Positions 1-21,820 of a stretch of 64,000 bases of DNA are shown here, piece after piece. This DNA is from Polytrichum commune. Lineage: Eukaryota > Streptophyta > Polytrichopsida > Polytrichales > Polytrichaceae. The stretch is from assembly GCA_950295325.1 (NCBI GenBank), contig OX485808.1, positions 37,902,527 through 37,966,526 of the forward strand, in the 5' to 3' direction. Position 1 is the stretch's first letter. Each line of letters begins with the position of its first letter. The position numbers were made by a program, and so were the translations under genes. A model generated the notes under the pieces. That model searched no databases. It was not told the DNA's origin and was given only the letters and a program-made list of their open reading frames with translations.

Positions 1-2216
1 GAGCATACTTTGACAAAATCCTATCTTTATAGTAACTGTTTCTATGAGCCTCCTGCAACGTTAGATGTCGAAGGCTAGCATTCGAGATGGCCAAGTGACC
101 AGCTGTGTTTTTTGTGTGTATTCGCAACAAATCCTTGAAAGCTGCACAAGTTCCACAACGCGAGAAGTTGTCACCGGGGCTCTTTATAACATATTGCTTG
201 TAATGTTGTCGATGTAGGCGGCTGAAGGTGGACGTAGAGATAGGCGTGTACCCTAAGTCTCCGTCCAAGTTGTTCACTTCCTGCAACAAGTTGCACCACG
301 TTGTTCCCACAGGCAGCATCTCTGTTCCTATCTTCTCACCAGTTGGAAGAGTCCGAGTCATATGGGGCATGGCGTCCGCCCTACCCTCAACCAATACTCC
401 AAGGGTGGCTCGTGCCTGCACTATATTCGCCCGTGGTTTTGTAGTTCCTGTATTTCCATGATCTCGGGATCTAATCCCCATCAAGCTTTCGGCCTTGTTC
501 CTATTGAATTGTGCCCTTGATATCATATAGATGTTCATCCATGCACGAATGCATATTGTTCTCCCTTCCACAATAACCATATCACGGCCGTTTTGCTCAT
601 GTTTCTGGATCGTTTGGAACACCGACTGGGCTATGAGCTTCCGACCATTGAATGGCAATGCGAAGTAGTGTTTCCGAATACTCATCAACAAAGGCCTTGG
701 GAATACCTGGCAACAACGCTCCGAACAACAATCCACCGCTGATAACATCCGTGCATGCTCCTCAGTGGCTCCCCAAATTTTCAACCCTGCTGGCCGAGTT
801 GCACACATCCTCGCAGTGTTGTATTGGCGTTTTCCAAGCAAGCGCCGATGACTTTGAGCTTCCCGGGTCGCATTATGATGGACCAACAATATTTCCGCCA
901 ATGTATGTCCTTCAAATTTGGTGAGTGAAAGAGGCCAACGGTGCAAAGTGTTCTCCCAATCCCGCGAAATAACATTGTCGGTTGGGTTCATGATAATAAC
1001 TCCAACATCCTCAGCCCCTAGGATGCTATTGTCAACACAATCCAACGGATTTGTGTTGCAAATCAATCCATCACACAAAGCATGGCCCTCATCATCAAAC
1101 AACACAACGGCCTTCCCCTTCAGTTCCGTCCTCGACAACCCAATGTAATGTGGAATCTGAACATCGATATCAAGGGTTGTCAACACACATTGAACACAAG
1201 CTCACGGGTGTTCACCCGTGGGGGACAACATTGACATATCAGCAGAATGTCCAAACTCATATAGCGGGTGAGCTCTACACCTCTCTTCACGCTACTCAAA
1301 AAAGTATGTGTTGCCTATCATATTCACATTGTGAGAAGTGCCCTTCTTACCAGTTCGCTTAAAGCCCCCACACCAAAACTAACATCCCTAACACTGCATT
1401 GTCAACAATTATTACTACGCATGTAGGTGTCACATTTGCTGGCTCAAGTGGTAACAAAATAGTAGCCATACAGGATAGTGCCAATATTCATGTTTAACGA
1501 ATATCATCGTCACCATATATCAAAATGAATCACGAAACTTCCAACTCGTAATTCACAACATATTTCACATACCTAACAGTGGATCTACAAAAGATCATAA
1601 TTGCATCTACAACTATTGAGTATGCCACACACATGATACACGGCCATCTTGTAACCTCACATATGTAGGGACAACTAACATACATATGATCTACTTCCAC
1701 GGGTGAACACCCGTGGGGCCTTCCATGCATCTGCATATAGGAGTCTTCCACGGGTGAACACCCGTGGGCGCCCCCCACCGGGTCCACGTCTCTCCCACGG
1801 GTGAGCACCCGTGAGCCCCCCCACCGGGTCCGCGTCTCTCCCACGGGTGAACACCCGTGGGGGCCCCCCAACCGAGTCCGAGTCTCTCCCACGGGTGAAC
1901 ACCCGTGGGGCCCCCACTGGGTCCGAGTCTCTACCACGGGTGAACACCTGTGGGGCCCCAACCGGGTCCGAGTCTCTCCCACGGGTGAACACCCGTGGGG
2001 CCCCCACCGGGTCCGAGTCTCTCCCACGGGTGAACACCTGTGGGGCCCCAACCGGGTCCGAGTCTCTCCCACGGGTGAACACCCGTGGACTACTATGCCG
2101 TACAGTTTGGGGGTGTACGGACATGGGGTTGCCACGGGTGCACCCGTGGCAGAGTGGGAAAGCGAGTATGGTAGAACTCAGCTCACCTCTTCCACCATGT
2201 GAGGCACACTCTCCAT
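1..2216 (-). CDS. Gene 1: transposase-like protein, 3' end outside window
   Basis: On the minus strand an open frame runs without a stop from 1156 to base 1 (385 codons) and leaves the window, so it is incomplete here. The model joins exon 2216-2187 (ATG in an AACCATGG context, 10 codons, donor GTGAGC) to the exon starting at 1156 (acceptor TTCAG); both junctions are phase 0. The 1030-nt intron holds the palindrome array. Near residue 343 there is a CxxC pair (SRCGTC), followed by a His/Arg/Tyr-rich helix ending in HRNSYYKD. This CxxC plus helix arrangement resembles transposase-like proteins (DUF7869 type) that I recall from mosses and algae, in which an acidic catalytic block follows; that block would lie outside the window. 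The family assignment is tentative. The open frame, promoter and splice sites argue for a real gene. Additional small exons inside the array cannot be excluded. Confidence 0.55.
1201..1222. repeat. Single palindrome copy near the gene 1 acceptor
   Basis: A copy with centre TT on the plus strand, opposite to the main array, lies about 45 nt from the acceptor of the long exon. The gene-1 frame read past the acceptor hits a stop inside this palindrome, which supports its being intronic. Confidence 0.8.
1694..2149. repeat. Palindrome array 1, in intron 1 of gene 1
   Basis: Ten copies of a 22-bp near-palindrome lie at about 1697, 1748, 1794, 1840, 1888, 1934, 1978, 2023, 2068 and 2132 (the last shortened). 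On the plus strand the centre is AA, so the gene-1 sense strand reads TT. The spacers are also repeated, a GC-rich segment containing GGGTCCGAGTCTCT, giving a period of about 45 bp. Copies at 1794, 1934 and 2023 carry single changes in one arm. An eleventh copy stands alone at 1201-1222, close to the acceptor. Spacer repetition suggests local tandem amplification of a palindrome-plus-spacer unit. Confidence 0.9.
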
Positions 2217-2293
2217 GGTTGCTCCTCAAGGGTGAAGGGTGAAGGGTGGTGGACTCAAATGAGGAAAAAGGAATGACCCTCCAAATGGTGGCC

Positions 2294-2301
2294 TTTATAT
2301 A
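2294..2301 (-). promoter_or_regulatory. TATA box of gene 1
   Basis: The minus strand reads TATATAAA, 78 bases upstream of the proposed ATG at 2216. A start of transcription about 30 bases downstream would give a 5' leader of roughly 45-50 nt. The leader includes short tandem CACCCTT units (about 2225-2245). Confidence 0.6.
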
Positions 2302-4140
2302 GGTCGTGAGCATGGCCTCCAATTTCACATGAGGAAGTACATTGCATTCCCTCCAATCTCGTAAGTACTTAGACGTCATTCCCTCCAATTCCAAACGCCA
2401 TGAGCTAATCACGTACTAACCTTCCTCATATTGAATAATGATGACCTTCGGTAGTGGGCTAAGACCTCGTATGTACATGGAGTGAAAATTTGGTACAAGG
2501 CGAAGGAGAGTCTTCGCGGTACCAATGATCATTGTGTAAGCTTTGCATACACCTCATACCACTACCGAGCATACTCATGCCAACATTACAATATAGTTGA
2601 TTACAATCACAAGAATCGTTTGTAACTAACCTACGACGAGGAGAAATTGGTAGAGTTGCATAATTCTTCCGTTGACGCATGACAATTAAGGGGTTAATAT
2701 CCCAGCAAGTGTAACACACTTTTTTGTTAATCCAAATTCTAAACTTACATAATGTCACCTTTTGGGAAAAAAAATTGAAAGTTATACTCCCACATAAAAT
2801 AGTGGTTGTTTGCACATATATATATACATGACTCCTTTACACATTGAGGTCCCCCTTGAGTTGAGGTGATCCAAAGTGATGTGAGAGGTTCGTCATCAAT
2901 GAGAAGCGTGTTTTTTTTTTGAATTAAATCTTCAACATTCCTTTTAGAGATATGAACCACCTAAGATATAAGACCATGCCATGGGCCAAGGAATAAATGC
3001 ACATTAACTTCTACTTGATATTGTGATATGATCTTGTCTTTTTCTCACGGTGTTTTTTAGTCGACCACCAATTATAACATAATAATGTCGCAAGCATAAT
3101 AATGTCACTTACCTAGTTATAATGAGAAATTACCTATTATTCCATACCCCACAATACTTTAAAGATGTCCAATACTTACAATATTGTGATAGTATGTTGT
3201 GAAATATTTTGTGACTTACAATGAGCGATGCAATATTTTGTGACTTATAATGAGTGATGGAGTAGTTTGCAAAATAATGTCAATCCCGCAGCCCCCATTA
3301 TGATTCTAAATAATGTTATGAAATGAATCATTTATAGGCCTAGTGGGTATAATATCACAAAATATCAATCATTGTTATGATAGTTATGTAATGTCCTTGT
3401 TTCTCTCATATTATGTGCTACATTATACTATTGCAATGGTGCAAGCATAGTAAAGTGGACCAAGAAAGTGCTCCGGTATATGAATGCCATGATTTTCTTG
3501 GTCAAACCCCTATAAGTAGTAGCAAAATGTTGTTTAAAATATATATAAAAACATTATCCAAACGATTTTGAGTTTGGAGATTATTGAACTACTATTTAAA
3601 ATTGGGGTTAAATACATTTGAGTAACCTTTAAGTAACCTTTCCAGAATGTCGAGCTCCAATCCATGGGTATGACTTGTGGACTTGCCATAAATATTTTTG
3701 AAATCACCTTTAAGGAGAATATAATGGCGTAATTTTGGACCGTGTAGCCATAGATGTTGGAGGCATGTGGGATTTGTTGTTGGCAATGTTCAAATTTAGT
3801 ACTTTGGTACTTAGGTTGTCAATCCATGCCTACAACCGACCCTACAATGACAATCATATTTTGAGAGTTTGTGATTGACTATGCTAGGTTATAATAAGAA
3901 TCTATGTGATAGCATGGTTATACTTACGTGAATACCGGTCCCTTAGATGTGCACTTTCTAAAGGACATTCGAGGCCGTAAATATGCAAGTCAACCAATAC
4001 ATTAACTGTACAACCACACTTGAAAGGTCAAGTATGAAGTTGAGTTTAGGCACATGGAATGGGATTGAGATATATGTTGGAGTAGGCAATATCAATCAAG
4101 TCAAGTGATAGGGTATTTCAAATTCGTGGGATCTCGCAAA
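2302..4140. other. Gene-free AT-rich stretch with dispersed repeats
   Basis: No convincing coding region was seen. Segment 2730-2860 resembles 24590-24710 (same order of an ACATAATG block, an A-run, a CTCCCACATAAAATAGTGGTTG-like block and a pyrimidine run). Segment 3437-3545 matches 23877-23975 over about 100 bp (both contain TAAAGTGGACCAA). These look like remnants of a dispersed repeat family. Confidence 0.55.
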
Positions 4141-4144
4141 CAAT

Positions 4145-4170
4145 GGGTTTAGGGTTTAGGGTTTAGGGTT
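4145..4170 (+). repeat. Short interstitial TTTAGGG repeats
   Basis: About three and a half units of the plant-type telomere heptamer TTTAGGG occur in ordinary AT-rich flanks. The tract is too short and too embedded to be a chromosome end; it is an interstitial telomere-like tract. Confidence 0.85.
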
Positions 4171-4654
4171 ATTTCTTTCCTTATCATTAGTCTAATTTGG
4201 GTCATCATCATAAGTTTGCTCTTCATTCTCTTCTTCTGAGTGATATGTTGGAGTTACTACACTAAATATTTTAGTTAGTGTCGTATGGTATTTTATGTCA
4301 TTCTAGCAACATTTCTAGTGACATTTATTGTAATCAAGGTTACAAATATTTGTCATCCCAACTTACTTTTAGTTCTTCCAAATGCCAATGAATCCAACAA
4401 AGTTTGGTATATTTTGCATCCGTACATTTTTGCAATGAAATGTAGTCATGGATGATTAAAATTTGGATCATAATCACAATGTCGACAATGTTGTAAATTT
4501 GTGATGCCCAATGTTTTTTTTTGAAGGAATGACAAATAATCTTAGGTTTGGATTTATTGTTGATGACACTAAACGGGCAGTTGACAATTAGTATTGAGCA
4601 ACACAAATAGAGTTGATGACTCTAACTACAATTATGTTTATTGTGTTGTGGAGG

Positions 4655-6419
4655 TACATTACATGGATGATGCTCCCGTCTAGGTAGTAACATGACATAG
4701 AAGGATGGAATATATGTGGGAGTATTTGGATGTATTGAGGGCCCAGTGGAGGGGTGGCAAGTGGGTGTGGGTTGACTTCTTTGGTGGATTGCATTAATGG
4801 CAATACTTATGATATCAGGGAAAGAATGTGACAACAAGGAATAAGATTTGAATTGAGAACATCCACACTCTAGGGTTTCAAGATGTTTCATCGCATTCAA
4901 GTATGCCTACCTAGACCATTTTGATATGAGTTCTTAATTGGGTTCTTGATATGAACACCCGCTTCAACGTATTTGCATCTTACAACATTCTCCAATATCG
5001 ATGACACATGGAGGATGGAGCCGGCTAGGTAGGAACATGACATAGAAGGATGAAATATATGTGGGAGTATTTGGACATATTAAGGGCCCAGTGGAACTTT
5101 GGCCCGTGGGTGCATAGTTCCCAACCCAGGGGGTGTACTATGACAGACATGTACGATAATATGCCAATGCATAGAAGGCTCAAGGGGTGGACGCTCCATA
5201 CCACGTAGGAACATATTAAAGTGTAAGAAGGGGTGTCACTTGCCTCATACTAGCACAAAATATACATAAGTGTTAGTTTCATCGTATTCAAGTCTTCATT
5301 CATTATTGTCATATGGTGGTAGTCCTCAAGTTCCTAGAACACTCTAAATTGAGAATTTCGCATGTCTCAAATTCATATATGGACCACAACAACATGGTCT
5401 AATGCTTGGGTCTTCCTACCTAAACCACTTTGAACCCGTGTTCTTAATTGGGTTCTTGATATGTCACACGGAGGATGGAGCCGGCTAGGTGGGAACATGA
5501 CATGGAAGGATGAAATATGTGTGGGAGTATCTGGACATATTAAGGGCCCAGTGGAACTTTGGCCCGTGGGTGAATAGTTCCCATCCCAGGGGGTTTACTA
5601 TGACAGACATGTGCGATTATATGCCAATGCATAGAAGGCTCAAGGGGTGGACGCTCCATACCACGTAGGAACATATTAAATTGTAAGAAGGGGTGTCACT
5701 TGACTCATACTCATACAAAATATACACAAGTGAGAGTTATTAATTTTTCTAGTGTGTATAACTACAAAGGATACAAAGAATTTTGAAATAAATGTAGATG
5801 TACACAAGGGGACCCTAAGGTTTCGGAGTTAACTTAACAATGTATGTGTTAGTTTCATCGTATTCAAGTCTTCATTCATTATTGTCATATGGTGGTAGTC
5901 CTCAAGTTCCTAGAACACTCTAAGTTCTTAGGTTTTGCTCCTTAGACTGTGTCTTGGGCGTTGCGATTTTGTCATCGCCGGATTGATGCAACTCTTGATG
6001 AGTATATTTGTATGTTAACAAATTATGTTAATGACTATATGTAAATGCAACTTTTTATTTATACATATTTTTGAGATTGTGTGTGTATTGCCTAATTTTA
6101 CAAAAAGAGCTACTATATAAGAGGTTTTAAGAATATGCTGAGAACGTATGTGATTCCTGCTTGTCACAAAAGGTGCATTCCCTAGGGTTTGCAATTTCTT
6201 AAGCACCTCTCAAAGGTCATTCGTTAATTTGAGACTTTCGCATGTCTCAAATTCATATATGGACCACAACAACATGGTCTAATGCTTGGGTCTTCCTACC
6301 TAAACCACTTTGAACCCGTGTTCTTAATTGGAGCCTTGATATGTCACACGGAGGATGCCGCCGGCTAGGTAGGAACATGACATGGAAGGATGAAATATAT
6401 GTGGGAGTATCTAGACATA
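4655..6419. repeat. Repeated unit family, three main copies plus a partial one
   Basis: A unit of about 300-330 bp containing GGAACATGACAT, GGGCCCAGTGG, a CCCAGGGGGT block and CACGTAGGAACATATTAA occurs near 4905-5250 and 5395-5710. It begins again at 6235, where the transposon at 6424-10339 interrupts it; the rest resumes at 10344. A diverged partial copy is at about 4655-4745. A block of 5836-5925 duplicates 5275-5345, and a block at 5998-6062 recurs at 11801-11866. No coding potential was recognised. The uninterrupted copies provide the empty-site sequence for the insertion. Confidence 0.8.
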
Positions 6420-6439
6420 TTAACCCTTAAAAGAGGTTG
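6420..6439 (+). repeat. Left target duplication and left inverted repeat
   Basis: TTAA followed by CCCTTAAAAGAGGTTG; the partner is at 10324-10343. Confidence 0.9.
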
Positions 6440-7400
6440 CCCCGTTATTGTGGGGGCAAGTAGACGCCCTGTATTTCGCGCACTGGTGCATTTGGGTGCG
6501 GATATAGACCGATTCCCTGCACCGAATTTTATGCAATTTTGTTGGCTTGTGGGCCCCGAAGTGTAGCAGACTTCGGCGAAAGATTCCCACGAAATTGGTC
6601 GTGCAGAGAATTATTTGTGAATTTCTAAGTGCCCGCTGGTGCGGTGGGGTCTGGAAATGGAATACGTATCCATACTGTGTGTATACGGCTTGGGGTGGGG
6701 GTGCGCTGATACGGCGGGTGCAAGCGTGGGTGCGTCCTCTGTGTGCGATGTGGAGTGCGACAGGCAGTCACCCGGTCACTTTGGTAACCGGGGAAACCTG
6801 TTTTAGCCTGCAACCACCTTCTGAGGTGACCTCATGGGCAAGGAGTGTGTGCCACATGGACGAATGGGGCGCATCCTCTGAAGTGTGGCAGGACATGGGC
6901 CCCTGTCCCACGACAGGGGCATCCCAACCGTAACTCACAGGCTCCCCGCTGCGGCACGGTGTGTTCCGCTGCGAGGAGTGTGCAAATCCGAGTTCCGAAA
7001 TTACGGCAATTCTAGTCAGATGTGCGGCATGGAACTGTACACATATATAGCAACAATTGCAATTACTTGTCCAAAAATGTTCATACATTCAAAAGCCCGC
7101 ATACTGTGCGGAAATGTCCAAAATGTGTCTGCGGGATTGGAGCTCTCAACAACACTCCCACCCAATCCCTATACGAAACCCACCCCCCTGAGAACTATGT
7201 ACATGATCCACATGATTGTGAAACCAGGTTAGCTACAAGTCGGGGAACTAAGTGCGGTCTATGGAAGGAAGGAAATCGACGCTCTGTTCGGGAGTGTAGA
7301 AACGGCGGCAACTATCTGTGACGTCCCTCTGGTATGCAAATCGCGCTCGTTGTCTCCACGCCATGCCTATCCCTGTTATCGGCAACGAGGACCGTCCGCC
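6440..7400. other. Left interior of the TTAA element, no gene recognised
   Basis: This GC-richer stretch contains short inverted repeats such as CCGAAGT...ACTTCGG near 6557-6578. Several overlapping open frames exist on both strands, but none has recognisable motifs or a convincing start. It is downstream of the B3 exon on the minus strand and could hold its 3' part or untranslated region. Confidence 0.4.
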
Positions 7401-7420
7401 GTTCACACCCTCCTCACCTC

Positions 7421-8099
7421 GAAGGCCAGCGGACCAACCTGCGTGAATTGTACCGTGTCGCCGAGCTTCAATCCGTTGGCGGTGCAGAATCGTGCCCAGC
7501 CCTTCGTGAACGAGAAAATCGTCTGCTTGCCAGCAGTATGCGTGGCTGTCTTCACGGAGCATTGCATCGTCGGGCCGTGTAGGGTGTAAAACACACCATC
7601 GAACCCTGCCGCTCCGTGAGTGCGCCAGAACGCTGTTGGTACATCCTGCGGAAACAGCAAACGATTGAGTCCAGTAATCTTGCGGATGTCCAATCGTGCT
7701 TCTCCACGACTCAGCACCGAAGCTGCATGCTGGAAATACCCTGAACTTCCATACTGTGTGTGCAGATAGAGGAACCAAATAGTACTGTAAATGTGGTAGG
7801 GTTTGCACTCACAATTCTGCTGGAGTCAAAATTCTTCAAGTGCGTCTTCCGAATTGTTTTGCAAAATTGGGGTCGATCGTCACTCTGGACATCGGGGAGC
7901 ACCTTCGAGTGTCTCCTGTGACCATCGTCATCCTCGGCAGGCTCGCGCTCACAACCACCCAGCAGCCCGAATTCGACGTCGACCTCCTGTGCCTCCTCGA
8001 AGTCTTCGGCAGCGCATCGTTGGTGGTGTGCGACCACCAGACGTCGGTCGTCCACGACCTCGAATGTCAGAAACGCTCCGAGGCCAAGATTCTGCAGAG
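7421..8099 (-). CDS. B3-type DNA-binding domain protein (transposon cargo, partial model)
   Basis: Two minus-strand exons splice in phase 0. The upstream exon ends at 7812 before a GTGAGTGC donor. The downstream exon starts at 7733 after a TTTCCAG acceptor and runs to about 7421, where GTGAGG could be the next donor. The second exon contains most of a B3 fold: a hydrophobic strand with ITGLNRLLFPQDVP, then FSFTKGWARFCTANGLKLGD, then TVQFTQVGPLAFEV. The GW-x-x-F, Lx-x-GD and final F-x-V are the usual B3 signatures. The upstream exon has an acidic stretch (EDFEEAQEVDVEF) and a segment LTFEVVDDRRLVV that may be the tail of another B3 unit. B3 proteins are plant transcription regulators that bind DNA. 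No ATG was fixed; the frame enters the minisatellite upstream. It could be a decaying captured host gene. Confidence 0.5.
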
Positions 8100-8275
8100 T
8101 GGATGTGCAGAGTGGATGTGCAGGAGTGGATGTGCAGATTCTGCAGAGTGGATGTGCAGAGTGGATGTGCAGAGATGTGCAGAGTGGATGTGCAGATGTG
8201 CAGATGTGCAGAGTGGATGTGCAGAGATGGCCAAGATTCTGCAGAGTGGATGTGCAGAGTGGATGTGCAGGAAGG
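8095..8275. repeat. Minisatellite GTGGATGTGCAGA
   Basis: About 13 imperfect 11-13 bp units (GTGGATGTGCAGA and shorter GATGTGCA forms) are interspersed with ATTCTGCAGA. Long low-complexity frames on both strands here come from the repeat and are not genes. A lone unit reappears at 8758-8775. Confidence 0.85.
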
Positions 8276-8995
8276 TTCCAGATGTTTCAGCCGACATTCA
8301 GGTTCACTGAAATACAATGTTGGAGGTACACTAATCCAAACCCTGAACTGCTCCACAATGTCTATTTGAAGGCCTCTAAAATGGCCAAAAGACCCTTTGT
8401 GGTCATCAAGACCAAGAAGTATGTGCGGCATCAATGAAAAAAAACCCTCAAGGGAACACCTAATACCCCGGGAGGAATCAGCATAGTAAACATCCAAAAC
8501 CGTGAAGGGGTTAATAATGCAGATGTGTCTTGGCGGCGATAGATTTTCAGATGTGTCCTGCTGGCTCAAAAAACTCAGAGCCAGTATGGAAAAATCATGC
8601 CGCGGCACAAATTGAGGACACCGGCTCTCACTAAACTGCTATCCCTTACACAAACCTGTGTCACCTAAACATCTGGTCTAGGTTGAAATCACCACAGGAG
8701 CATAAAGACCAGAGCGTAAAGGCAGTTTTTATAAACATGCGGTTGCCAATCGATCCAGCAGAGTGGATGTGCAGGTCGCTCTTGGAAGTCCCAGCCAACA
8801 TTCAGGTTCACTGAAACACAATGTTTATCGGCACACTAATCCAAACCCTGAACTGCTCCACGATGTCTTTTTGCAAGTGATTTCCCAAATGGCCGAAAGA
8901 CCCTTTGTGGTCATCAACACCAGGAAGCATGTGCGGCATCAACGGGAAAAAAACCCTCAAGGGAACACCTAATACCCCGGGAGGAATCACAACAT
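8276..8995. repeat. Direct duplication of about 200 bp inside the TTAA element
   Basis: Segment 8276-8475 is repeated at about 8776-8988 in the same orientation. Shared landmarks include ACATTCAGGTTCACTGAAA, CCAAACCCTGAACTGCTCCA, AGACCCTTTGTGGTCATCAA and GAACACCTAATACCCCGGGA. Both copies are preceded by the GTGGATGTGCAGG unit. Small insertions and deletions shift the reading frame between copies, so coding function is doubtful. Confidence 0.8.
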
Positions 8996-9212
8996 GTGAC
9001 AAAGAACCACAGAGTACTCCACAAAGATCCGGCCACATCCCCTTGTAAATGTGGATCCTTTAATTCGAATTCTCGGCAACATCCGTTGGCAATGTAGGCC
9101 AATAGGGTCGCTCACACCGAGCGAGAATGCACATCGAAATACTATAAGCGAACAGTTACTCAACGTCGAGACCCGCTAGCCTAACACCAGCAAATTATTG
9201 CAACAACAAACC

Positions 9213-9824
9213 CTAAGCAACCACGCACAAATTGGGAGACGGGGCATGGTGTGTCCAAGTGCAGGAAGACGAACCTGCGGAGTGATGATGGGCGTCGATG
9301 GCGCGCGATCCCGCATTTGCACCGGCTGTGACCCTCCCCGGGCCATCCGCGCGAGGCGCTTCATGCCTCACACCCAGCGTGGGGAAAACGTGCCCACGTA
9401 GAAGGCTAGTCACAATTTCGGGGAACCTCCGGCGCTCACACCAACCCAAAATCCGCGCCGCGTGCCTGTACCAGAGATAGCGGCACCGCTCTTGCACTCC
9501 AAATTGTCCTCTCCGATTCCAGCTGCTGGGGCGTGGCTGCGCAAGGAGTGAGGATGCATCCAGGAGCTGCACCGCCCGTGCCGCGCCGACCTCAGAAACC
9601 CCTTGCCTGTTGAACCAATTTCGCAATTCAGACTCCAACAAAATGCGCTCTGCGCTCGCCGAGTCGCTGCCCCTCTCCATGTATACGCGCCAGAGCGCGG
9701 TGTGCCTTCCTTGGATATGCAAGCACGGATCCGCAAACGAGTTTGAAAATGGGTGAAGGACAATCCGCCCAAAACAAAACCTGTTGTTGCGAATCCGGGA
9801 CACCATTTTCCCCCTCAAGGCCAA
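9213..9824 (-). CDS. Hypothetical frame in the right part of the TTAA element
   Basis: A 200-codon minus-strand frame in GC-rich DNA, with two overlapping alternative frames of more than 80 codons. Its middle (RILLESELRNWFNRQG, then AARAVQLLDASSLLAQ) looks like amphipathic helices and may be genuine coding sequence; the C-terminal part is Arg/Ala/Gly-rich and probably not. The nominal first codon is not ATG, so if real it is an internal exon or begins at an ATG inside. I recognise no family. It lies upstream of the B3 exons on the same strand and could be part of that gene. Confidence 0.25.
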   Translation of the reverse strand: MALRGKMVSRIRNNRFCFGRIVLHPFSNSFADPCLHIQGRHTALWRVYMERGSDSASAERILLESELRNWFNRQGVSEVGAARAVQLLDASSLLAQPRPSSWNRRGQFGVQERCRYLWYRHAARILGWCERRRFPEIVTSLLRGHVFPTLGVRHEAPRADGPGRVTAGANAGSRAIDAHHHSAGSSSCTWTHHAPSPNLCVVA

Positions 9825-11480: not shown

Positions 11481-11488
11481 ATTCCACC

Positions 11489-11603: not shown

Positions 11604-11665
11604 ACGTTTGAAGTATAATCTAGTATTTATCAACCTAACATGACTTTTAGGTGTCCAGGTGGCCA

Positions 11666-11704: not shown

Positions 11705-11800
11705 ATATCGTGTTTTGGGTATGATGTGGCATTAGCAAATCAATTTGAGTTTTGATGTGGCATTAGCAAAGCACATGAATGTGAATAAAATCCAAACCCA

Positions 11801-12185
11801 GAGTATATTTGTATGTTAACAAATTATGTTAATGACTATATGTAAATGCAACTTTTTATTTATTACCAAGTGCTGAAAATTATGTTACCAATACTTGGAC
11901 ATATTGCTAAGTGATATTAATTATCTCACTAATACCCAGATTTCGTACTAAGCACTGATAATTTTCTTACTAACTCCCACCTATCTTACTAGGACGTAGT
12001 TAACCAAATCTTAATACGTAGTTATCTTACTAATACGCAGTTATCTTACTAGCTAATTATCTTACCAATATTTAAATATCTTACTAAGTGCCAATAACTA
12101 TATCACTAATACTTACTTATCTTACTATGTACTACTAATTAATATACGAATGTGATGCCTACATTACTAAGTACTAATAATTCTT
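11801..12185. repeat. Duplicated block and TTACTAAT-rich degenerate tandem tract
   Basis: 11801-11866 duplicates 5998-6062 almost exactly. After it, about 320 bp consists of degenerate units around ATCTTACTAATACNNAG with period near 20-25 bp. No coding content. Confidence 0.65.
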
Positions 12186-13317
12186 TATCACTACCTCCCT
12201 AAACCATCATACCGCCCAAACCCCCTCCGCATCGTCCTTAAGCCGCCGATTCCGAAATCCCTTCGCATCCCGAGATCTCATCCACCACGTCCCTTCGTAC
12301 TAATCACTCATTATGTGGCCTTTTACTTCCACCATCCCGTCATTATGGCGTTTCTTGAATGGGACCCACTCTCTCATTGTCTCTCTCTCTCTCATTCTCC
12401 CTCACTCTCATTCTTCCTCTCTCTCATTCTCCTCTTTCCACCATTGAAGCTTCCGACCCAAAGCTCCACTTCAAAACTCCCTCTTCTTTCTTCCACCACT
12501 TTTCTGGACTCTCTTCATTCTTTTTGGACTATCTTCATTTTGGACTCTCTTCATTCTTGCTGGAATACCACTTTTCTAAATTCTTGTCATTCTCTTTCTC
12601 TCCACATTTCTTCATTCTCTCCATTCTCTTGCTCCTCCTACTTTTCTTGTTTCTCTTATTTCTCCACCCTCTACTCACTTTCCTGATTCTCATTCTCTTT
12701 CTTGCTTCAACTGACTTTCTTGATTATCTTCTTTCTGTAGCTTCTACTCACTTCTCCATTCTATTGCTTCATCTTGCTTCCACCCACTTCTCCATACTCT
12801 TGTTCAAATCCAGAATGTGGCATTGCTGAAATGTGGAGAAAAGTGAGAGGATGAAGAAAGATTGGAGAGAAGTCCAATTCTGGTACTTGTAAGCAATCAT
12901 TTCATTCTCCTAATCTTCCATTCTATTCATGCTTTGGTTGCATTGTAGTGCTTGTGAAGTCCAATTCTGGAATTGTTGTTTGTGGTGAACCAGGGTTTGT
13001 TTGTTTCTGATGGTAGGGTTTCAATTGTGAGAATGTGGTGCATTTTTGGTGCACTAGGGTTTCAATTCGTTGGAGAATCTCACACCCAAATATGTTAGAG
13101 AAATTTAAGTGAGTTGTGTGATGCTTGGTTGTGATGAATTGAGTGAAATGCTAGAGGAATGCTCAAACTAGGATGCAATGAGGGTGTGTTCCTAATAATG
13201 TGAGACCAAAATTTCTTGTTTTTCTGCTTTGAGAGCATGAATGTATTTCACATGGAACTAATCTTTTAGGGTTTTGTTATGTGCAGAAACAAACATTGGA
13301 TTTGAACAACATTAGGC
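12186..13317 (+). promoter_or_regulatory. Probable promoter, pyrimidine-rich leader and leader intron of gene 2
   Basis: A strongly pyrimidine-rich stretch (about 12360-12800, CTCTCTCT and TTCTTC tracts) looks like a plant 5' leader and not like protein. A possible leader intron runs from about 12882 (GTACTTGTAAG) to the acceptor GTGCAG at 13281-13286, followed by a short exon that holds the ATG at 13318. No clear TATA box was seen. Apparent Ser/Leu/Phe-rich frames over the pyrimidine tract are composition artefacts. Confidence 0.45.
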
Positions 13318-13339
13318 ATGGCTCCACCAAAGAATCCTG
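13318..13339 (+). other. Alternative first coding exon of gene 2 (MAPPKNP)
   Basis: ATG in a good context (GGCATGG) opens a 22-nt coding segment ending at a strong donor GTGAGT (13340). It ends in phase 1, exactly like the H3-like exon at 14086-14116, so it can splice to 14219 and give MAPPKNP-VSGGVGRA. If it is instead spliced to the acceptor before the H3-like exon, the frame stops within a few codons and would act as a short upstream frame. The two exons therefore look mutually exclusive. Confidence 0.45.
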
Positions 13340-13413
13340 GTGAGTATGCATAAATTCTCATTACCTTGGCCCTAGGTGTGAAAGGGGTTGTCTGGAAGTG
13401 GTTATTTCAAGGG

Positions 13414-13903
13414 CCCACGGGTGTTCACCCGTGGGCCTCCTCACTCGCAACTGGTGGTGGGGTATGCCCACGGGTGTTCACCCGTGGGCCTCACCACTAC
13501 CAACTAGTGAGGTATGCCCACGGGTGTTCACCCGTGGGCCTCCCCACTCCTAACTGGTGGTGGGGTTGGCCCACGGGTGAACACCCGTGGGCCTCCGCAC
13601 TCCCAACTGGTGGTGGGGTATGCCCACGGGTATTCACCCGTGGCCCTCCCCACTCCTAACTGGTGGTGGGGATTGCCCACGGGTGAACACCCGTGGGCCT
13701 CCCCACTCGCAACTGGTGGTGGGGTATGCCCACGGGTGTTCACCCGTGGGCCTCCCCACTAGTAATTTGTGAGGTATGCCCACGGGTGTTCACCCGTGGG
13801 CCTCTACCCTAGTAATTTGTGAGGTATGCCCAGGGGTGTTCACCCGTGGGCGTCCCCACTCCTAACTTGCGGTGGGGTATGCCCACGGGTGAACACCCGT
13901 GGG
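13414..13903. repeat. Palindrome array 2, in intron 1 of gene 2
   Basis: Ten copies of the 22-bp palindrome lie at about 13414, 13467, 13517, 13570, 13623, 13676, 13729, 13779, 13829 and 13882. Spacing is 50-53 bp, with repeated spacers of the CTCCCCACTCCTAACTGGTGG type. Centres are TT in seven copies, AA in three (13570, 13676, 13882); 13623 has TATTC and 13829 has one arm change (CAGGGG). The spacer differs from that of array 1, so the two arrays were amplified independently around the same core. Confidence 0.9.
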
Positions 13904-14085
13904 CCTTTCCATTCTCTTGGAGGGGGCCATTTTTGGGTAGTTTTCTTTTGGCTTTCTTAGCTAACACAACATTGTTCCACCACAGGTTTATGTTTTTGAA
14001 GGTTATAGACAAGACCATGTGGTAGACAGTTGGTGTTTTATTCAGGTGCATAGAGGTGTCGCAGTGACCTCTCATTTGAATATAG

Positions 14086-14116
14086 ATGGCAAGAACTAAG
14101 CAAACGGCTCGTAAAG
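14086..14116 (+). other. Histone H3 tail-like first exon
   Basis: 31 nt encode MARTKQTARK plus one base, ending at the donor GTATAA. Histone H3 begins MARTKQTARKSTGG; after splicing to 14219 this protein begins MARTKQTARKVSGG. R2, K4, T6, R8 and K9 are present; S10 becomes Val. The preceding bases TATAG could be an acceptor, or the exon could be preceded by untranslated sequence. The rest of H3 is absent, so this is not a histone gene. Confidence 0.8.
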
Positions 14117-17100
14117 GTATAACCACAATACCTATGTGCACGTCAATGTTATATGAATTCTAAAATTATGAAAATTGTACACTATGCGGAGTACTAACAC
14201 GTGCATTTTCGTCTTCAGTATCTGGGGGCGTGGGAAGAGCGGTGAACTACGATATTGAGGTGTTGGGCCCAGAGTTGCAATGGTTCATGCAGTACAGTGG
14301 TTTCGGGGAGACAACGGTCCTCTCGCTATACACGAAGACTGGGCCTAATTCCACGTGGAGGAAGTTCCTAAAGGCAAAGCATGTGTTGGACATCCAAGCG
14401 GATGGGAGCCGCGTTCTGATTATGTGTAAGTCGTCAGAACGCAAGAAGGACTTCAAGGTTGCAGGATTAGTGGATACATTTTCGTATGCGGATGTGAACG
14501 AAGAACTCAACAATGAGGGAGAGAACATCCGCTCATTAAACGGTGAATTTCTCACCTATTGTATAGAATACAGCGAGACCAACAAGCATACAAGGTCCGC
14601 GGAGGAGAGATCAGTCATGATCGAGCAAGACTACAAGGCTGCTCTACGGCGAGTGACGGTAATAGTTGAGGAGGCGAAGGCGGCGAGGTTGGAGGAAAAT
14701 TTGAGGAAGAAGCAAATCCGAGACGGGAAGAGGAAGGATCAAGGTGAGGAACGTGCTATGTCGTCTAGGAAGAAGACAAGACCCGCCGAAGATCATGAAA
14801 TGATTGTCGAAGACACACCCGCCGAGGATGTTGTGGCGAAGAGAGGCAAGAAGAAAATTGTCGAAGATAGTCCATTTCTTGAGCTCGAGAAGATTCCGAG
14901 GCGATCAATTCATGGGCCTCCAGAAAAATCGGTTGGAGACAGATTGATGGATATGGAATTGTTTAAGAACAAGTACAATAGGGTTTGGATTTTTGGTGAA
15001 GGCGTCAATGGATTTGTAAATATTGCAAATATAGAGCGGGGCGATGCAGGGTATAACTGCCGGCCCATATCCGACGCACATTTGAGGGAGATGAAGACAT
15101 GGTTATTCAACTATGCCTTCATACCGAAGATCCATCCCAACTTCTTGACAATCGTTCCATCGGATAGGCGAAGGAAACCTACAAATTTTGAGGAGGTGAA
15201 GAACAAATCGTTCCACGTGGTGAATGGACAACACACGTTAGCAGCATGTTTGGAGTATGTGAATGATGCGGCCAGCACAGATGAGATGAAGAGGTTTTTC
15301 TCGACATGGCCCTGTAATGTGGTCTGGGCCCATGAAGGTGATGACGACCCTCTGTTTCACCTTTCTGGTGTTCTAAACCTGGATAGTGAATATAAGAAAC
15401 ATTTCCCATCATTTACGGAGTGCATTCAGCATGCCAAGAAGACGTGGATTAGGCGAGGAAGGCCTGACCGAACCGTACGCGAAAAGTCCAACAATGCGGA
15501 AGCGTTTAAGAAGTGGAAGGTATATTCCAAACTTGTGACTTTTGAATTTATCAATTGCTTGATCCCCACGGATGTTCACCCGTGGGCCACTATGATGCTG
15601 TTGGTGATTGATAGAAATAGAAGGAGTTGTATACATGGGGATTGATAAATGGCCGCTATTTGATACAGGCATTTGTTACGTGCGTCATGTGGACGTTCCG
15701 CGTGGAGAGGGAGACCAACCTCATCATGGAGCACGTGTTGCCCGTGTTGAGAGATGACATATGGGAGAAGTGGGAGAAGATATTAATGGAATACGAGAGT
15801 GACGAGTACATCGACCCAAAGACCGGGCTTCGTATGAAAGATACGAAGGGTTTCAAACCAAGGAAGGTGGTCAAGAACGATCTGAAGCAGTTTCGAGGCT
15901 TGACAGAGATGGAGCTCGACAAGGCAGCGGATCAAATCCTCTCCGCCAAAGATGGAGAGGATTACCCTAGGCATACCTTGAAAACTGTGCGCGATTGGGC
16001 GGTGAATAGGAAGAAGAAGAATGAAACCTATATCGGAATGGCACAGTGTTTAGACCCGACCCCAATGTACATCGTCAATGTGGAGCAGAAGGAGACTATT
16101 GATCGGGATTTGTGGAGATTGTGGAAGCGAGTGAATAACTTTGGAAAACTCCAGCGAGAACGACTTGTGGACTTGCTTGGAGCGGAGTACCTTATTGCCG
16201 CCATGAACCCAACAAGGAAGAGACTACCTATTCCCGACCGGTTCAAAGAAGGAGTGCGAAACATACTAGGTAGCCATAATACGGAGGTTTCGCCCGCCCA
16301 TGTCGTGTTGTCTATTGACAACAATTACGCGCTCAGCGGTGGGACAGTGATCGCACCAGTACTGCATGCTTACATGGACACATGTTTTCTGCCCGGAGTC
16401 CAGGCGGGAATAGGTAGTGGAGGTCGTATGATGGAGGTTGTCGACTCCACACTGCAAGGTCTTCGTCGCGCTTTTTCTGGCATTTTGGAGTCCCCCCAAT
16501 TGTGGACTGTGATTTCGGAATATCCGGACCGGCATTTCATACACAATGTTCTGAAGACACACTTGCCGAGAAATGTGAGATTTTGTGACGCAGTCTACCA
16601 TGGAACCAAAGAGGAGAAAATTGCTTCTCGCGATTGCTTCTTCGAAGCAAGTGCTCTTCGTGTTACAACCTGCATTTTTCCTAGTAGAGGCGAGGCAAGT
16701 TCGGAGGTGGCTGTGCTGCTCTGTGGAGGACGGAAGATGTTGGACGTGCATGAGCCTGGGCGATATGCACGTTATTCAGAGAAAAAGGCTTATTCCAATG
16801 AGGAGGCCAAGTCTTTATTCAAGGGGGAGTTGAGAATGCAGACCTATATAGATATCATCAAGCCTTCTTGTCTTGAGGGGTCATTTTTTCTGAATATTTG
16901 TGGAGGCAACAAGGTGCATATAGTGGCACATGTAAGTATTGAGCATCTTCTCCCAATTGTGATATTTTGGATATACCACGTTATGTAGATGATGTCCTAG
17001 AGAGCCATATCCTACACCAGGTAGGAAGGCCCACGGGTGAACACCCGTGGGCCTGGACATGCACCTGCCTTATAACCCCATGTTTGATAGCTCTCCAGAT

Positions 17101-20100
17101 TGTTATTTGTTTCCGAATCAATAAGTTGGGAATTTCACAATAACGAATTTGATATTTAATGGCTTTCTCATTCAATGGATGTGTTCAGGCCTTGGGTATG
17201 AAGGTAGTGAATATTGTGCCCGTGGAGATGGTGGAGGTGGCGAAGACAAAAATGATTTCCGCACTTGACTGGAGCCTACAAAGGTGGAATGAAGAAGGTA
17301 AAATCGCTGCCCGAGACCCGGAAGAAGAAGGAGAAGATGATATCGATATTGAATCGATTATTGAACGCGCATTGCGTCGCAAGCCTGTCAATGATGCTCC
17401 CCTGGAGGAGGAAGAGGATGAAGAGGATGAAGAGGAGGCGGTGAATGAAGACAACCCAGTTATTAACCTGGGGGAGTCTGAAAAGGAAGTGGAAGAGGAA
17501 GAGCAAGAGCAAGAGCAAGAGCAAGAGCAAGAGCAAGAGCAAGAGGAAGAGCAAGAGCAAGAGCAAGAGCAAGAGGATGCTGTGGCCGTTAACGCCGCAA
17601 TGGCGGACGCCATGGCGGAGCTCCTCTCGGAGGCCGAGGAGGAGGCCTTTAATTTCAAAACTTCAATGGTGATTCAGGAGGACATGCCACAGGTCGAGGT
17701 TCCCCACGGGTGTTCACCCGTGGGGGGTGTGGAGGGGGAGAGGTTGGGGGAGGCGGTGGGGCAGGAAGTTGTTCATAGGGAGCCTGAGCATAGTGTTAAT
17801 ATCGCGGTGGGATCTTTCTCGTCTGGGATCCCATCTACACCCGGACGTGGGTTTGTTGAAGTTGATACTTCTACACGAAATGAAGAACAAGCAGATGTTC
17901 GTCCTATGGGAGAATCCGAGGAGGAAGAGCGTCCACGGTCCGCGGAAGAGCCTCAATTGGAGGCTAATCCTGGCAGAAGGTCTACATCGAGACCATCTGC
18001 AAGGAAGAAGGTGAAAGCTCCCCGAAGGGGGAGGTCATCTCTACGTCCCCCTAGAGTTGTAGAACTTTCTCGATCTGCGGAGGCCATGGATCATTCTAAT
18101 CTTGAACGCGAGGTTGAATCTGGCGAAGTAGCGGATGTGGAGGATGAACTTGTGGACGTAATCATGTCTGAAGCTGCGCATGACGAAGGTGTGAGCACGG
18201 ATTTGAACGTCAGCTCACCTGTGGAGGAGGTCGCCGCTGCCGTGCTCGAAGTCCTAGGCCAAGGACGAATACACAGAGATTCCCCTGGTGTTGTGGTTGC
18301 AGAGGAGCCCACAGCTAGTGAAGCAGAGGTGATCATGCGAAAACAAGTCATATGCTTGGATAGTGATGATGATATGCCCGAGAAATGTGTGGAACTAGAC
18401 GTGAGGGTGAAGGTTAGAGATCGAGTTCCACATCGGGTTCGGGGGACGTTTGCGGACTACATGATGGACGATTCCGAGGACGAAGACTATGGGATGCCAG
18501 GGTACAACAGAGTTAAACTCAACTTTGTTGATTACCCTCACCCTATGCTTGCTTCGAGACCCGACACGGGCAAGGAATCGGATGGGAAGGAGAAGGTGCA
18601 TTTTGCACCATTTGTGGACAAATTTTTGGCAAAGGTTCCCGAGAACGTGCGATTGAATCTTGCGCATTTATACAAGTCGTATGACTATCACAAGATGTTC
18701 GCTTATCTCTCCACTCCAGCGTTTTGTGAAGCAGTGAAGGTGAAACATGTTCTACATGCCGCTTCATTGAAGAAAATGAGAAAGAGATGGACCGCGTTTG
18801 AAGCTCCAAAACATCGTGGAGGACGAGGTCAATTCCCGGGATCCTCCGCCGCTCAAGCTGGCAGTGTTGTGGATTCTACCATGGAGATCATCGACGTCAG
18901 TGAAGTGCCAGATTCTCCAAGGAGGGATGTCCATGTTGGCCCTGTTGCTGAGGGTCAACCGTCTTCCTCCAATTTGGTTGCGGCAGAACGGGAGGTCATT
19001 CCCCCGAGTTCTCATGACGACCCTGCACTCCTAGACCGAGCTCCAGGTATCATATATGGTGTTATTTGATTGGAATTGGTCCCACGGGTGTTCACCCGTG
19101 GGTCCCCTGGTTTGTAGTTTACAATTTCCACGCAAATTGTTAGATCATGTCCAATACTTGATTGATATTTTGCCCACGGGTGTTCACCCGTGGGAGAGTA
19201 TGGTTTTCAGCATGTGGATCTCATAAGTTATGTGTTGATGTGGTCATAGGTCCTACAGCCACGGCCGAATTACCTCCTTCGGTACGATGTTCTCCCCTAG
19301 CTCGCAAAACTAATCAATAAATGTGCAAGCATTATTTTCTATTGCGGATGCATACATATGTCAACCCAATCTGTTGTTTCCTAGTCGAGAAATATCCATT
19401 AGAATCTATTGTTTCCTTAGATTAAAAACCTTTAGAATGACTTGAGATTTTGTCATCGCCAGATACTCACCTCTCCAAGCACTGTTGTCCATCGGAGAGA
19501 GAAGATATGGTTAGTGTTGGATGTCAACGGGATCCTTGTGAGGTCAACAAAGTGCGACAATGTCAACACCAGGAAGTCTCTTGAATCACAATATAGCCCC
19601 CTTATAACTGGGGAGTTGGCTCCCCTCTTTCTCCCATATAGTGCCTTAATACCTAGGAAAGGACTGGGACGCTTTCTGCGTTTTGTTCTTTCGAACTTCC
19701 ATGTTGTCATCTGGTCGTCGAAGCTCATGAAGAATCTCCAGCCAATTGTGCGATACTTCTTCAAAGGGTGTAGACATCCAGAGTATGTCATTGGGCAAGA
19801 ACTATGTGACACTCTGAAGGATGAGAGAGGACAAGTTCTTCCTAGTCCTATGAATTCCGATTCAAGCTTCTTCGTGAAAGACCTGAGCGCATTTTTTGAG
19901 TGGAGCCGGACACATCCTCTGCCGCACATGAAGCAACCCTCTCATAGGACCACACTACTTGTTGATGACTCCCCTTACAAATGCATCCCAAACCCTCCTG
20001 GGAGCTACGTCAACCCTCCCCCATTTCTGTCGAACCAAAGCTTGGACACTCTGCATAATTACCTACAAAGGCTCTTGAGTTCTGAACAATATGTGCCAGA

Positions 20101-20227
20101 TTTTGTGGGGAGCAACCCTTATCCATCAGGCCAGGGACCCTTCAATCTAGAGTTGCCAAACTCTCAGATTTATAAGCAATCATTAGCTAGACATACAAGT
20201 CTGAAATCTGCCCGTATGGTCCCATAG
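14086..20227 (+). CDS. Gene 2: H3-tail-mimic / ParB-like / FCP1-like fusion protein
   Basis: Six exons join with consistent phases: 14086-14116, 14219-15519, 15669-16931, 17189-19046, 19250-19281, 19463-20227, giving about 1749 residues. All introns are GT-AG. Order of parts: residues 1-14 MARTKQTARKVSGG, matching the H3 tail through K9; a novel region to about 150; a Lys/Arg/Glu-rich helical linker with basic clusters (KKTRP, KRGKKK) that may be nuclear signals; a segment with FHVVNGQHTLAAC near residue 342, a degenerate form of the DGxHR motif of ParB/DGQHR domains; a large region ending in FLNICGGNKVHIVAH plus ALGMKVVNIV, shaped like a methyltransferase motif I but not proven; Glu-rich repeats; a basic patch; VICLDSDDD (SUMO-binding-like) near 1252; and an FCP1-like domain from 1496. 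It is probably nuclear. No known protein with this whole architecture comes to mind. The fusion rests on splice-site inspection, so two adjacent genes remain possible. Confidence 0.65.
14900..15519 (+). other. ParB/DGQHR-like segment of gene 2
   Basis: Residues about 240-444. The core VVNGQHTLAACLEY (15217-15258) aligns with the hydrophobic-D-G-x-H-R-x-x-A signature of ParB N-terminal and DGQHR-type domains. Here Asp is Asn and Arg is Thr; the Gly, His and Ala are kept. Bacterial ParB proteins bind nucleotide and spread from palindromic sites. The same fold is used in DNA-associated nucleases. The changes mean activity may be lost or altered. Confidence 0.45.
15565..15586 (+). repeat. Palindrome copy in intron 15520-15668
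   Basis: One copy (one change, CACGGATG) sits inside this 149-nt intron between exons 2 and 3. Confidence 0.85.
15669..17330 (+). other. Possible Rossmann/methyltransferase-like segment of gene 2
   Basis: Exon 3 and the start of exon 4. The segment SFFLNICGGNKVHIVAH (end of exon 3) and ALGMKVVNIV (start of exon 4) look like a beta strand, glycine loop, helix and second beta strand as in a SAM-binding motif I. A second glycine-containing strand (VAVLLCGGRKM) precedes it. I see no unambiguous DPPY-type catalytic motif. Function is unassigned; the fold call is inference. Confidence 0.3.
17030..17051 (+). repeat. Palindrome copy in intron 16932-17188
   Basis: A perfect copy with centre AA near the middle of the 257-nt intron. 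Confidence 0.85.
17400..17579 (+). repeat. Coding GAGCAA hexamer tract (Glu/Gln-rich)
   Basis: Units of GAGCAA with occasional GAGGAA encode alternating Glu-Gln after an acidic EEEDEEDEE segment (residues about 936-996). It is likely disordered and prone to length change. The reverse frame (Ser/Cys-rich) is a shadow. Confidence 0.85.
17703..17724 (+). repeat. Palindrome copy inside coding exon 4
   Basis: The only copy inside a proposed exon. It is translated in frame as PHGCSPVGG without a stop. No better splice pair that removes it was evident. Confidence 0.65.
19081..19194 (+). repeat. Two palindrome copies in intron 19047-19249
   Basis: Perfect copies with centre TT at 19081-19102 and 19173-19194, 92 bp apart. 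The next intron (19282-19462) has none, nor has 14117-14218. Confidence 0.85.
19463..20227 (+). other. FCP1/NLI-type phosphatase domain of gene 2
   Basis: Residues 1496-1749. WLVLDVNGILVRS is the phosphatase motif I, VVIWSSK motif II and LLVDDSPYK motif III of the FCP1/SCP family of HAD phosphatases, whose best-known substrates are phosphoserines of the RNA polymerase II tail. The canonical DxDx(T/V) is DVNGI here: the nucleophile Asp is kept, while the second Asp is Asn. Similar DxNG forms occur in plant NLI-type proteins as I recall them, so this may be ancestral and not a fresh loss. The domain ends about 25 residues before the stop. Confidence 0.75.
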
Positions 20228-20463
20228 GCGCAGATGTCTGTGTAGATCCCTTGTTGGGGCCGCAACTCGCTCGTACATTGTATGTGAAATAAGTGGAACT
20301 AAAACTTTTTGGACTTTTTGGAAGTTGCTCTGGTTTTGTGGACTTATTTCATGCAAACATGATATGGTGATGGATGTATGCCACTCGGATTCTACTACCT
20401 TGCAACACTGTTGTGTTAGAGAAGTTTCGACTATTTACAACCACATTGAACGTTTGGCATTAT

Positions 20464-20485
20464 CCCACGGGTGTTCACCCGTGGC
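20464..20485 (+). repeat. Palindrome copy downstream of gene 2 stop
   Basis: One copy about 235 bp after the stop codon, in the 3' region or in an intron leading to the exons at 20697-21257. Confidence 0.85.
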
Positions 20486-20696
20486 AATGTGGTGGTTGAT
20501 TCAATGAATGTACCAGAACACTTGGACAATGTTAGTTGACAACTTGGGAGTTTGGGTTGTTATGGGGAACATTAATATGTAGGACTTAGTCGGCTATAAT
20601 TCAATTATTTTTGCACATGTTCATCTTGCACCCACTGGCTCCTCTTGCATATAATGTCCTGCTTCCATGGAATCTTATGTTCTTGTACCATAACAG

Positions 20697-21257
20697 CATT
20701 CCCCATTTCCAACGCGACCTAAGAACTATATTGCCACTCCACCTCGCGGACACCGTCCTCCGGATGCTAACGCCGACTTCGCCGAAGTGACATCTCCATG
20801 CCCTAAGGTAATTTATTTTCCACATGAATCTCATTTTTTGTGGTTGTGTTTCGTCCTGGGGATTCTAATATCATTTTGGCCTATGTTGTGTTAGACACAT
20901 ATGCTCCAAACAAGCGATGTTGCGCTTGCGGTGGCTGTTCCGGTCGCGGTCGTGGTTGCAGCTCCGGTCACACGCGCTCGTGTGAAGAGACACCTTTCTC
21001 TCCAAACCACACAGCCTAGTGAGCCCACGGGCTCGGGAAATAGTTCTGGATGTTGGAGGTGTAGTTCACCCAATACCACCTCATCCATGTCTGATTACAT
21101 GGCTGCAAGGGTGAAACAACTTCGAGAAGCTACAGCTTTGACGGCGGAGAAAAAACGGCTTGAAGAACTCAAGTGCAAGCAATGTAGTGTAGCTCAAAGG
21201 ATACCCCATGACAAGATGTTGAAAATGATTACTGATTCATACTCCTCTTGTAGATAG
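20697..21257 (+). CDS. Two terminal exons of an unresolved gene or of a gene 2 isoform
   Basis: Exon 20697-20807 (acceptor AACAG, donor GTAATT, 37 codons, Pro-rich with RPKNYIATPPRGHRPPD) joins in phase 0 to exon 20895-21257 (acceptor TTAG). The second exon encodes an Ala/Val-rich stretch, a Ser/Thr/Cys-rich linker and a C-terminal helix (MAARVKQLREATALTAEKKR) that could form a coiled coil, ending in a stop at 21255-21257. An in-frame stop lies directly upstream of the first acceptor, so an earlier exon is needed. It is on the same strand as gene 2 with palindromes around it, so alternative splicing past the gene 2 stop is possible; the donor I tested (20213) does not fit the phase. No family recognised. 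Confidence 0.4.
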
Positions 21258-21281
21258 CCGGACCTTTATGGTTATAGATTG

Positions 21282-21820
21282 TCTACGGGTGTTCACCCGT
21301 GGATACAACAATTCATCTACTTTGTGACATATTTTGTTCACACTGTGCCAATTTTTATCAAATCCAAATGATGTTTTGACCCTTAGTTGTGTAGTCGGGT
21401 ATGACTTGTAGACCTTCCTGCAAGTGTTATGGATCTTGCATCGTGTGTTGCATGCCGTTGGTTGGTCACGGGCGTTCACCCGTGGTTGGATGTTTTTGTA
21501 TTAAGTGCCCATGATGGTTTTTATGATTACACCCATTATATTTGCATACATTTGTTCACATGCGCATGGTTGTTCCTTAGTGGTGTCGACTTATGTTGTG
21601 TTATGGATATAGGTTCATCTGTTGCGGGGTGTTGGTTGGTCACGAGTGAACACCCGTGGTTACAGGTGGGCTAAGTTTCACTTTCGGCAAGTACAAGGCA
21701 TTCATCTCACTTATATATATACACCAATGTGCATGAAATAGTGTGTTAGTCTATGTCAATGACCTTCCTCTTGTTCTAAACCTTGTCAATGATGGCAATT
21801 CACGGGTATTTACCCGTGAA
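21282..21820 (+). repeat. Last four palindrome copies
   Basis: Diverged copies lie at about 21282, 21466, 21639 (centre AA) and 21800 (arms TCACGGGTA / TACCCGTGA). Divergence increases rightward and no further copy was seen from 21821 to 64000. Sequence around 21445-21490 and 21625-21665 is itself duplicated (GTTGGTTGGTCACG). Confidence 0.8.

Follow-up and report, generated by a model that had tools for sequence, protein, structure and literature searches.

Organization of the locus

The window, i.e., the whole 64-kb stretch of DNA analysed here (C6:37902527-37966526), comes from Polytrichum commune, whose genome comprises 408 Mb in 64 contigs. Its left part is occupied by a giant DNA transposon that carries two genes, gene 1 and gene 2, and a family of 22-bp palindromes, for which we propose a role as private binding sites of an element-encoded protein. 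Positions count from the first base of the window, and negative numbers denote sequence to its left. The element and its genes are as follows:

1-21900: window part of the giant transposon; element start at about -2292 (about 2.3 kb before the window), length about 24.2 kb; copies on C1; target-site duplication (TSD) CTTG on both sides
21878-21900, minus strand: right terminal inverted repeat (TIR), ATGGGGATATTAACTAAAATGAG; TSD CTTG at 21901-21904; left partner outside the window
1-1201, minus strand: gene 1 main exon, open frame continuing to -874 outside the window, 692 amino acids, DUF7869 transposase-like; 3′ splice site approximate
2187-2216, minus strand: predicted first coding exon of gene 1, MESVPHMVEE, GT donor behind it; splice site predicted from sequence
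13318-13339, plus strand: possible alternative first exon 1a of gene 2, MAPPKNP-, phase 1; splice partner inferred from phase
14086-14116, plus strand: gene 2 first exon 1b, coding for MARTKQTARK
14219-15519, plus strand: gene 2 exon 2, weak PH-like fold, and predicted ParB/sulfiredoxin fold with motif NGQHT
15669-16931, plus strand: gene 2 exon 3, without Pfam domain
17189-19046, plus strand: gene 2 exon 4, acidic low-complexity region
19250-19281, plus strand: gene 2 exon 5
19463-20227, plus strand: gene 2 exon 6, NLI-interacting-factor (NIF) domain of the carboxy-terminal-domain (CTD) phosphatase type, PF03031, E 7.4e-12

Gene 1 matches PF25273 (DUF7869) with E 3.1e-46, and the same domain is precomputed in five of its six database relatives, the sixth being a 460-amino-acid fragment. 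By motif reading its product looks like a DDE transposase, and with the DUF7869 domain, TIRs and a TSD the element has the hallmarks of a DUF7869 DNA transposon. The six predicted exons of gene 2 are joined at GT-AG borders into a putative uninterrupted frame of 1749 amino acids.

Palindromic sites in the window

The pattern CCCACGGGTGNNCACCCGTGGG is matched at up to four mismatches by 29 sites in the window, of which 15 are exact, and two variants bring the total to 31, all within 1201-2150 and 13414-21820:

1201-2150: the 11 sites of array 1, within the predicted first intron of gene 1; the site at 1201 abuts the main exon
2131-2150: one of the 11 sites of array 1, a variant with arms of the same kind, without the 2-bp centre
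13414-13903: array 2, 10 sites, between gene 2 exons 1a and 1b
15565-15586: one palindrome, in predicted gene 2 intron 15520-15668
17030-17051: one palindrome, in predicted gene 2 intron 16932-17188
17703-17724: one palindrome, in frame within predicted gene 2 exon 4, read as PHGCSPVG
19081 and 19173 (span 19081-19194): two palindromes, in predicted gene 2 intron 19047-19249
20464, 21282, 21465, 21639 and 21799: five palindromes located behind gene 2; about 60 bp separate the last one from the right TIR
21799-21820: the last of these five, a variant, TTCACGGGTATTTACCCGTGAA, six mismatches

Twenty simulated sequences with the first-order composition of the window contained no site at up to four mismatches. 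The half-site, at up to one mismatch, matched 58 times compared with 1.69 expected, and one of these matches, at 22953, is an isolated half-site beyond the site region. No full site at up to six mismatches was found by the window scan in 2151-13413 or after 21821. Tandem Repeats Finder assigned periods of 45 and about 53 bp to the two arrays, whose spacers are unrelated. Three more sites of the same element lie to the left of the window, at -2086, -1846 and -962.

The original prediction, of about 31 copies in 1201-2149 and 13414-21820, of site-free stretches at 2150-13413 and 21821-64000 and of arrays with unrelated spacers, is borne out, with a chance expectation of nil. Its placement of the sites in introns stands for the arrays and several single sites, but fails for 17703, which is in predicted coding sequence, and for 20464 and the last four, which are behind gene 2. 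Confinement to two regions holds within the window and does not extend to the element, given the three sites just left of it.

The element and its copies

Genome-wide there are 644 exact palindromes, and 0 matches to the control pattern read backwards. Clusters of exact palindromes recur, with equal inner spacing, at loci far apart in the genome. The element ends were mapped by comparing the window and the 30 kb before it with the clusters at C1:34.0 and 48.4 Mb, which gave sharp ends common to the window copy and the C1 clusters. Element length across copies is 24-27 kb. A 20-bp TIR, GGGATATTAACTAAAATGAG, is present at both ends of the window copy and of copy A, and has a single base substituted at its right-hand occurrence in copy B; in the window copy it is preceded by three bases, ATA or ATG. 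The 4-bp TSDs are exact in the window copy (CTTG/CTTG) and copy B (ATCC/ATCC) and agree in three of four bases in copy A (CAAG/CAAC).

Context was read for 50 exact palindromes, the first of the 644 and all on C1: 39 are in copies or fragments of the transposon and 11 in one other dispersed repeat. A genome search with gene 1 gave 70 rows, and because 65 of 2199 candidates were scored, the copy counts are lower bounds. There are at least 46 near-full-length transposase copies (at least 5 at 99-100%, at least 30 at 91-94% and at least 11 at 83-85% identity), at least 34 of which have no internal stop; the further rows are at least 16 partial ones and 8 from at least four distant loci at 38-53% identity.

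A nest at C1:19.78-19.88 Mb (L014-L021) contains several inverted, interrupted copies of these elements, together with a polyprotein in L016/L017 that we take to be long-terminal-repeat-retrotransposon-like. A short conserved frame at about 20880-21258 (plus strand; MSDYxAARVKQLREAT...), with ends judged by eye and 128 amino acids long in copy A and nest C, may represent a third gene or an extra exon.

Conservation of the sites among copies

Across eight single sites, the arms are 98.9% identical and the 60-bp flanks 76.9% identical in copies A, B and C where alignable, in 23 comparisons that are not independent tests because the copies are related; the informative single sites are 17030, 17703, 19173 and 20464. 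Among 130 sites at up to four mismatches, the two outer bases are the most variable, and the inner eight of each arm vary little. The 78 imperfect sites of the CCCACGGGTG family contain 117 changed position pairs, related copies being counted apart; 86 are one-sided and 31 keep pairing. CpG retention in the palindromes is 39/46 in copy A and 33/35 in copy B, compared with 80/120 and 81/120 in other non-coding DNA, which would be compatible with reduced methylation of the target elements.

The asymmetric TT/AA centre flips between copies, and the arms mostly stay. At 19081 the window has TT where the three other copies all have AA, two of these three retaining intact arms, and among 100 centres (sites at up to one mismatch, five duplicate loci left out) TT occurs 48 times and AA 46 times.

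Sister families have other palindromes

A scan of the fetched loci for 10+2+10 palindromes revealed further ones, and among loci fetched for encoding gene 1 relatives each diverged family read has another palindrome. L036 and L037 (85% gene 1 identity) carry CCCACGGGCG-NN-CGCCCGTGGG, in which one base pair is changed in both arms; the change in both arms holds in 13 of 14 sites at up to one mismatch. L034 and L035, which at 40% represent a single family in two copies, carry TTTACGAACG-NN-CGTTCGTAAA, with 2909 exact copies genome-wide, and L038 (42%) carries GTTTGGGTCG-NN-CGACCCAAAC, with 9231 exact copies, far above the coding copies found. The latter palindrome is also present in L017, which encodes a gene 2 relative with the phosphatase end at 31% identity. 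A fifth palindrome, GAGGCCTCGG-AT-CCGAGGCCTC, occurs in 1917 exact copies and is packed into a dispersed repeat, each locus of which additionally contains two to four CCCACGGGTG-type sites; the stretches fetched for this repeat showed no coding relative. The centre is much freer in the GTTTGGGTCG and TTTACGAACG families, and is AT in 131 of 131 GAGGCCTCGG sites.

At up to one mismatch, each coding locus contains its own palindrome only, except for L018, where two elements adjoin, and a mixed site in L036. L034, L035 and L038 each have two main arrays 3-4 kb apart, one of them before gene 1, and in L034 and L035 the second is at gene 2; TTTACGAACG on C1 maps as the same paired arrays, e.g., at 2270108-2270915 and 2274119-2274799. 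The sequences suggest that each family has its own private DNA-recognition system.

The GAGGCCTCGG repeat is tandem-like on C1, with units often 126-129 bp apart (L001, L022-L027, L029, L030). Copy A has an insert of about 410 bp in the phosphatase exon (about C1:34016232-34016643) that is about 79% like the core of this repeat over 282 columns.

These results recast the original prediction of two genes that each have a large intron 1 array: a reading as host genes is not the right frame, because both genes lie in one transposon with at least 46 near-full-length transposase copies. It had also named a genome-wide dispersed repeat with no link to the gene families as the outcome that would speak against it; the dispersal is real, but the link exists, as 39 of the 50 C1 sites are in the element. 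A functional site family, as opposed to a random satellite, is supported by the arm and flank identities and by related elements with the same layout and another palindrome, and the same elements support in substance the idea of a dedicated system with paralogues.

Predicted features of the gene 2 product

Exon 1b, which is predicted to splice in frame to VSGG, codes for MARTKQTARK, which we take to be the first ten residues of histone H3, i.e., its N-terminal tail. Compared with the window, copies A and B have silent changes only in this exon, and copy C reads MARTKQTTRK. Copies A, B and C share the ATG and donor of exon 1a, with MVxPKNP as the peptide; since exon 1a, in addition, lies before array 2 and has the same splice phase, two isoforms starting at 1a or 1b are possible. 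The stretches fetched for L017, L034, L035 and L038 contained no H3-like peptide at up to three mismatches; those of L017 and L038 may exclude the gene 2 start. Like known histone H3 tail mimics, the gene 2 product would have the exact MARTKQTARK at its predicted N-terminus, but here it is encoded by a possible alternative first exon of a transposon gene, and a limited literature search found no other transposon protein with an H3-tail first exon. The tail may serve as a mimic that is modified or read.

For exon 2, structure modeling predicts the ParB N-terminal (CTPase) fold. Relatives of gene 2 occur in public metagenomes.

Proposed role of the palindromes

We consider it somewhat better than an even bet that the palindromes are private sites of the DUF7869 transposon, bound by an element-encoded dimeric protein with an anti-silencing function. 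Binding is tentatively assigned to the gene 2 product, the likeliest candidate by virtue of its predicted ParB-fold domain. Within a family the sequence of the sites is maintained, and between families the whole set is exchanged for another; this is the pattern that an element-encoded, sequence-specific dimeric binder is expected to leave. Because the approximately 30 sites form arrays at the 5′ ends of both genes and continue as single sites along the rest, the binder would load across its own element, and hardly elsewhere. The bound protein would maintain open chromatin on the element and drive, or set the timing of, the expression of its two genes, in the manner of VANC on VANDAL elements. 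The ParB fold would allow clamp loading at the palindrome and subsequent sliding, and the H3-tail first exon and the NIF phosphatase domain might act on chromatin and RNA polymerase II, respectively. A more specific version, a eukaryotic ParB/parS-like clamp in which a ParB-fold protein, with an H3 tail in one isoform and a CTD-type phosphatase, slides from the 22-bp palindromes over the element and keeps it out of host silencing, with families splitting as palindrome and reader change together, appears doubtful to us as a whole.

Several observations weigh against the proposal. Foldseek gave no match at E ≤ 0.001 (the best had E 1.4e-3 and a TM-score of 0.19 by query length), no ParB family was found in Pfam or NCBIfam at E ≤ 1 among 43 members scanned, and there was no sequence hit in the PDB. 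The predicted local distance difference test score of the structure model averages 64, and it reaches only 58-69 at residues 271-310 within the matched range. Furthermore, N/DGQH (NGQHT in 31, DGQHS in 11 and DGQYS in 1 of 43 members) stands where ParB has GERR, its nucleotide-binding motif. A palindrome-binding helix-turn-helix and CTP binding would be candidate features of the gene 2 product. With respect to the sites, L036:1708, the homologue of -962, combines an arm of either kind, the variant at L036:4716, which lacks a centre, belongs to the CCCACGGGTG type, and the 85% family rests on two loci, L036 and L037; for the 9231 GTTTGGGTCG and 2909 TTTACGAACG sites, context was read at the loci named above. 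Sites -962, 1201 and 15565 are in very similar flanks, and 20-44% of control windows match equally well in copies A and B. Two sites have degenerated in some copies, -1846 in both A and B and 21465 in A. Gene conversion could also keep sites identical among copies.

Alternatively, the gene 1 transposase, or a partner resembling TnpA, might bind the sites for cutting and synapsis of the ends, functions served in CACTA elements by subterminal repeats. The CACTA (En/Spm) TnpA sites likewise are many copies of a short element-specific motif, and here the sites come within about 60 bp of the right TIR, a half-site is about 90 bp from the left end, and gene 1 also diverges along with the families. 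However, TnpA sites are near the ends, whereas most sites here are internal, 1-13 kb from the ends, clustered at gene 5′ ends, in introns and once in coding sequence, and degeneracy is greatest, at 3-6 mismatches, in the four closest to the right end; we judge this explanation unlikely. It is quite unlikely, in our view, that the palindrome is a small mobile or self-copying repeat without function, kept uniform within the elements by gene conversion or template switching. Array copy number does differ between copies, and the TT/AA centres, about equally common and flipped at 19081, fit such a repeat, but single sites hold their position between copies whose flanks are 60-75% alike, and arrays before gene 1 recur in families with unrelated palindromes.

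Folding of the palindromes into hairpins, in the transcript or in single-stranded DNA, with shape mattering for splicing, silencing or replication, would agree with the long arms, the many intronic sites and the joint change of both arms between families. Five sites, however, are outside the two gene models, and the sequence itself is kept in the CCCACGGGTG family; the excess of one-sided changes (86 of 117, with 31 preserving pairing) argues against hairpins, because a purely structural constraint would tolerate every change that preserves pairing, and we regard this reading as highly unlikely. Regulation of the elements by a host DNA-binding protein is barely credible, as the several unrelated palindromes would require several host factors, and none of the 50 C1 sites is outside the element and the one other repeat.

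Other features of the window

An open frame at 52245-53021 (minus strand) has no Pfam hit and resembles a pogo/Tigger-type transposase. Adjacent kinase-like frames are found at 57670-58942 and 59482-61080 (minus strand), the latter with a match to PF07714. Tandem repeats are present at 8093-8270 (13/36-bp units) and 48649-49083 (35/69-bp units).

Comparison with known systems and implications

For element-specific anti-silencing as proposed here, VANC of Arabidopsis is the known precedent (PMC5735166, PMC10398659). As in the VANC/VANDAL system, where motifs in introns and upstream regions form tandem repeats that gain and lose units and differ between related families (PMC5735166), motifs specific to each family are tandemly repeated here in introns and upstream. 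The same study gives the VANC21 motif as 9 bp, YAGTATTAY, arrayed in one orientation, and DUF1985/DUF287 as the VANC domains (PMC5735166), whereas the present site is a 22-bp palindrome, gene 1 belongs to DUF7869, and DUF1985 and DUF287 are absent among the Pfam hits of the gene 2 frames. With ParB/parS systems, including the ParB-family anti-silencer VirB, which counteracts silencing, and the plasmid repressor and regulator KorB, which acts as a clamp, the element would share a ParB-like fold, palindromic sites and many sites per element (PMC10653881, PMC11790492). It differs in being a eukaryotic, intron-bearing transposon with 22-bp sites, in having N/DGQH in place of GERR and in the phosphatase domain encoded in the same predicted protein.

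Within a single genome, the elements provide a series of at least four naturally occurring site/element pairs that share one design, with sites that are readable from sequence. Because of this series, and of the gene 2 relatives in public metagenomes, how selfish elements build and change a sequence-specific escape from silencing becomes directly testable outside VANC. As judged from limited searches, a protein of this kind with a ParB fold and an H3-tail exon would be a novelty among eukaryotic transposons, and the palindromes could yield orthogonal sequence-specific chromatin tools.
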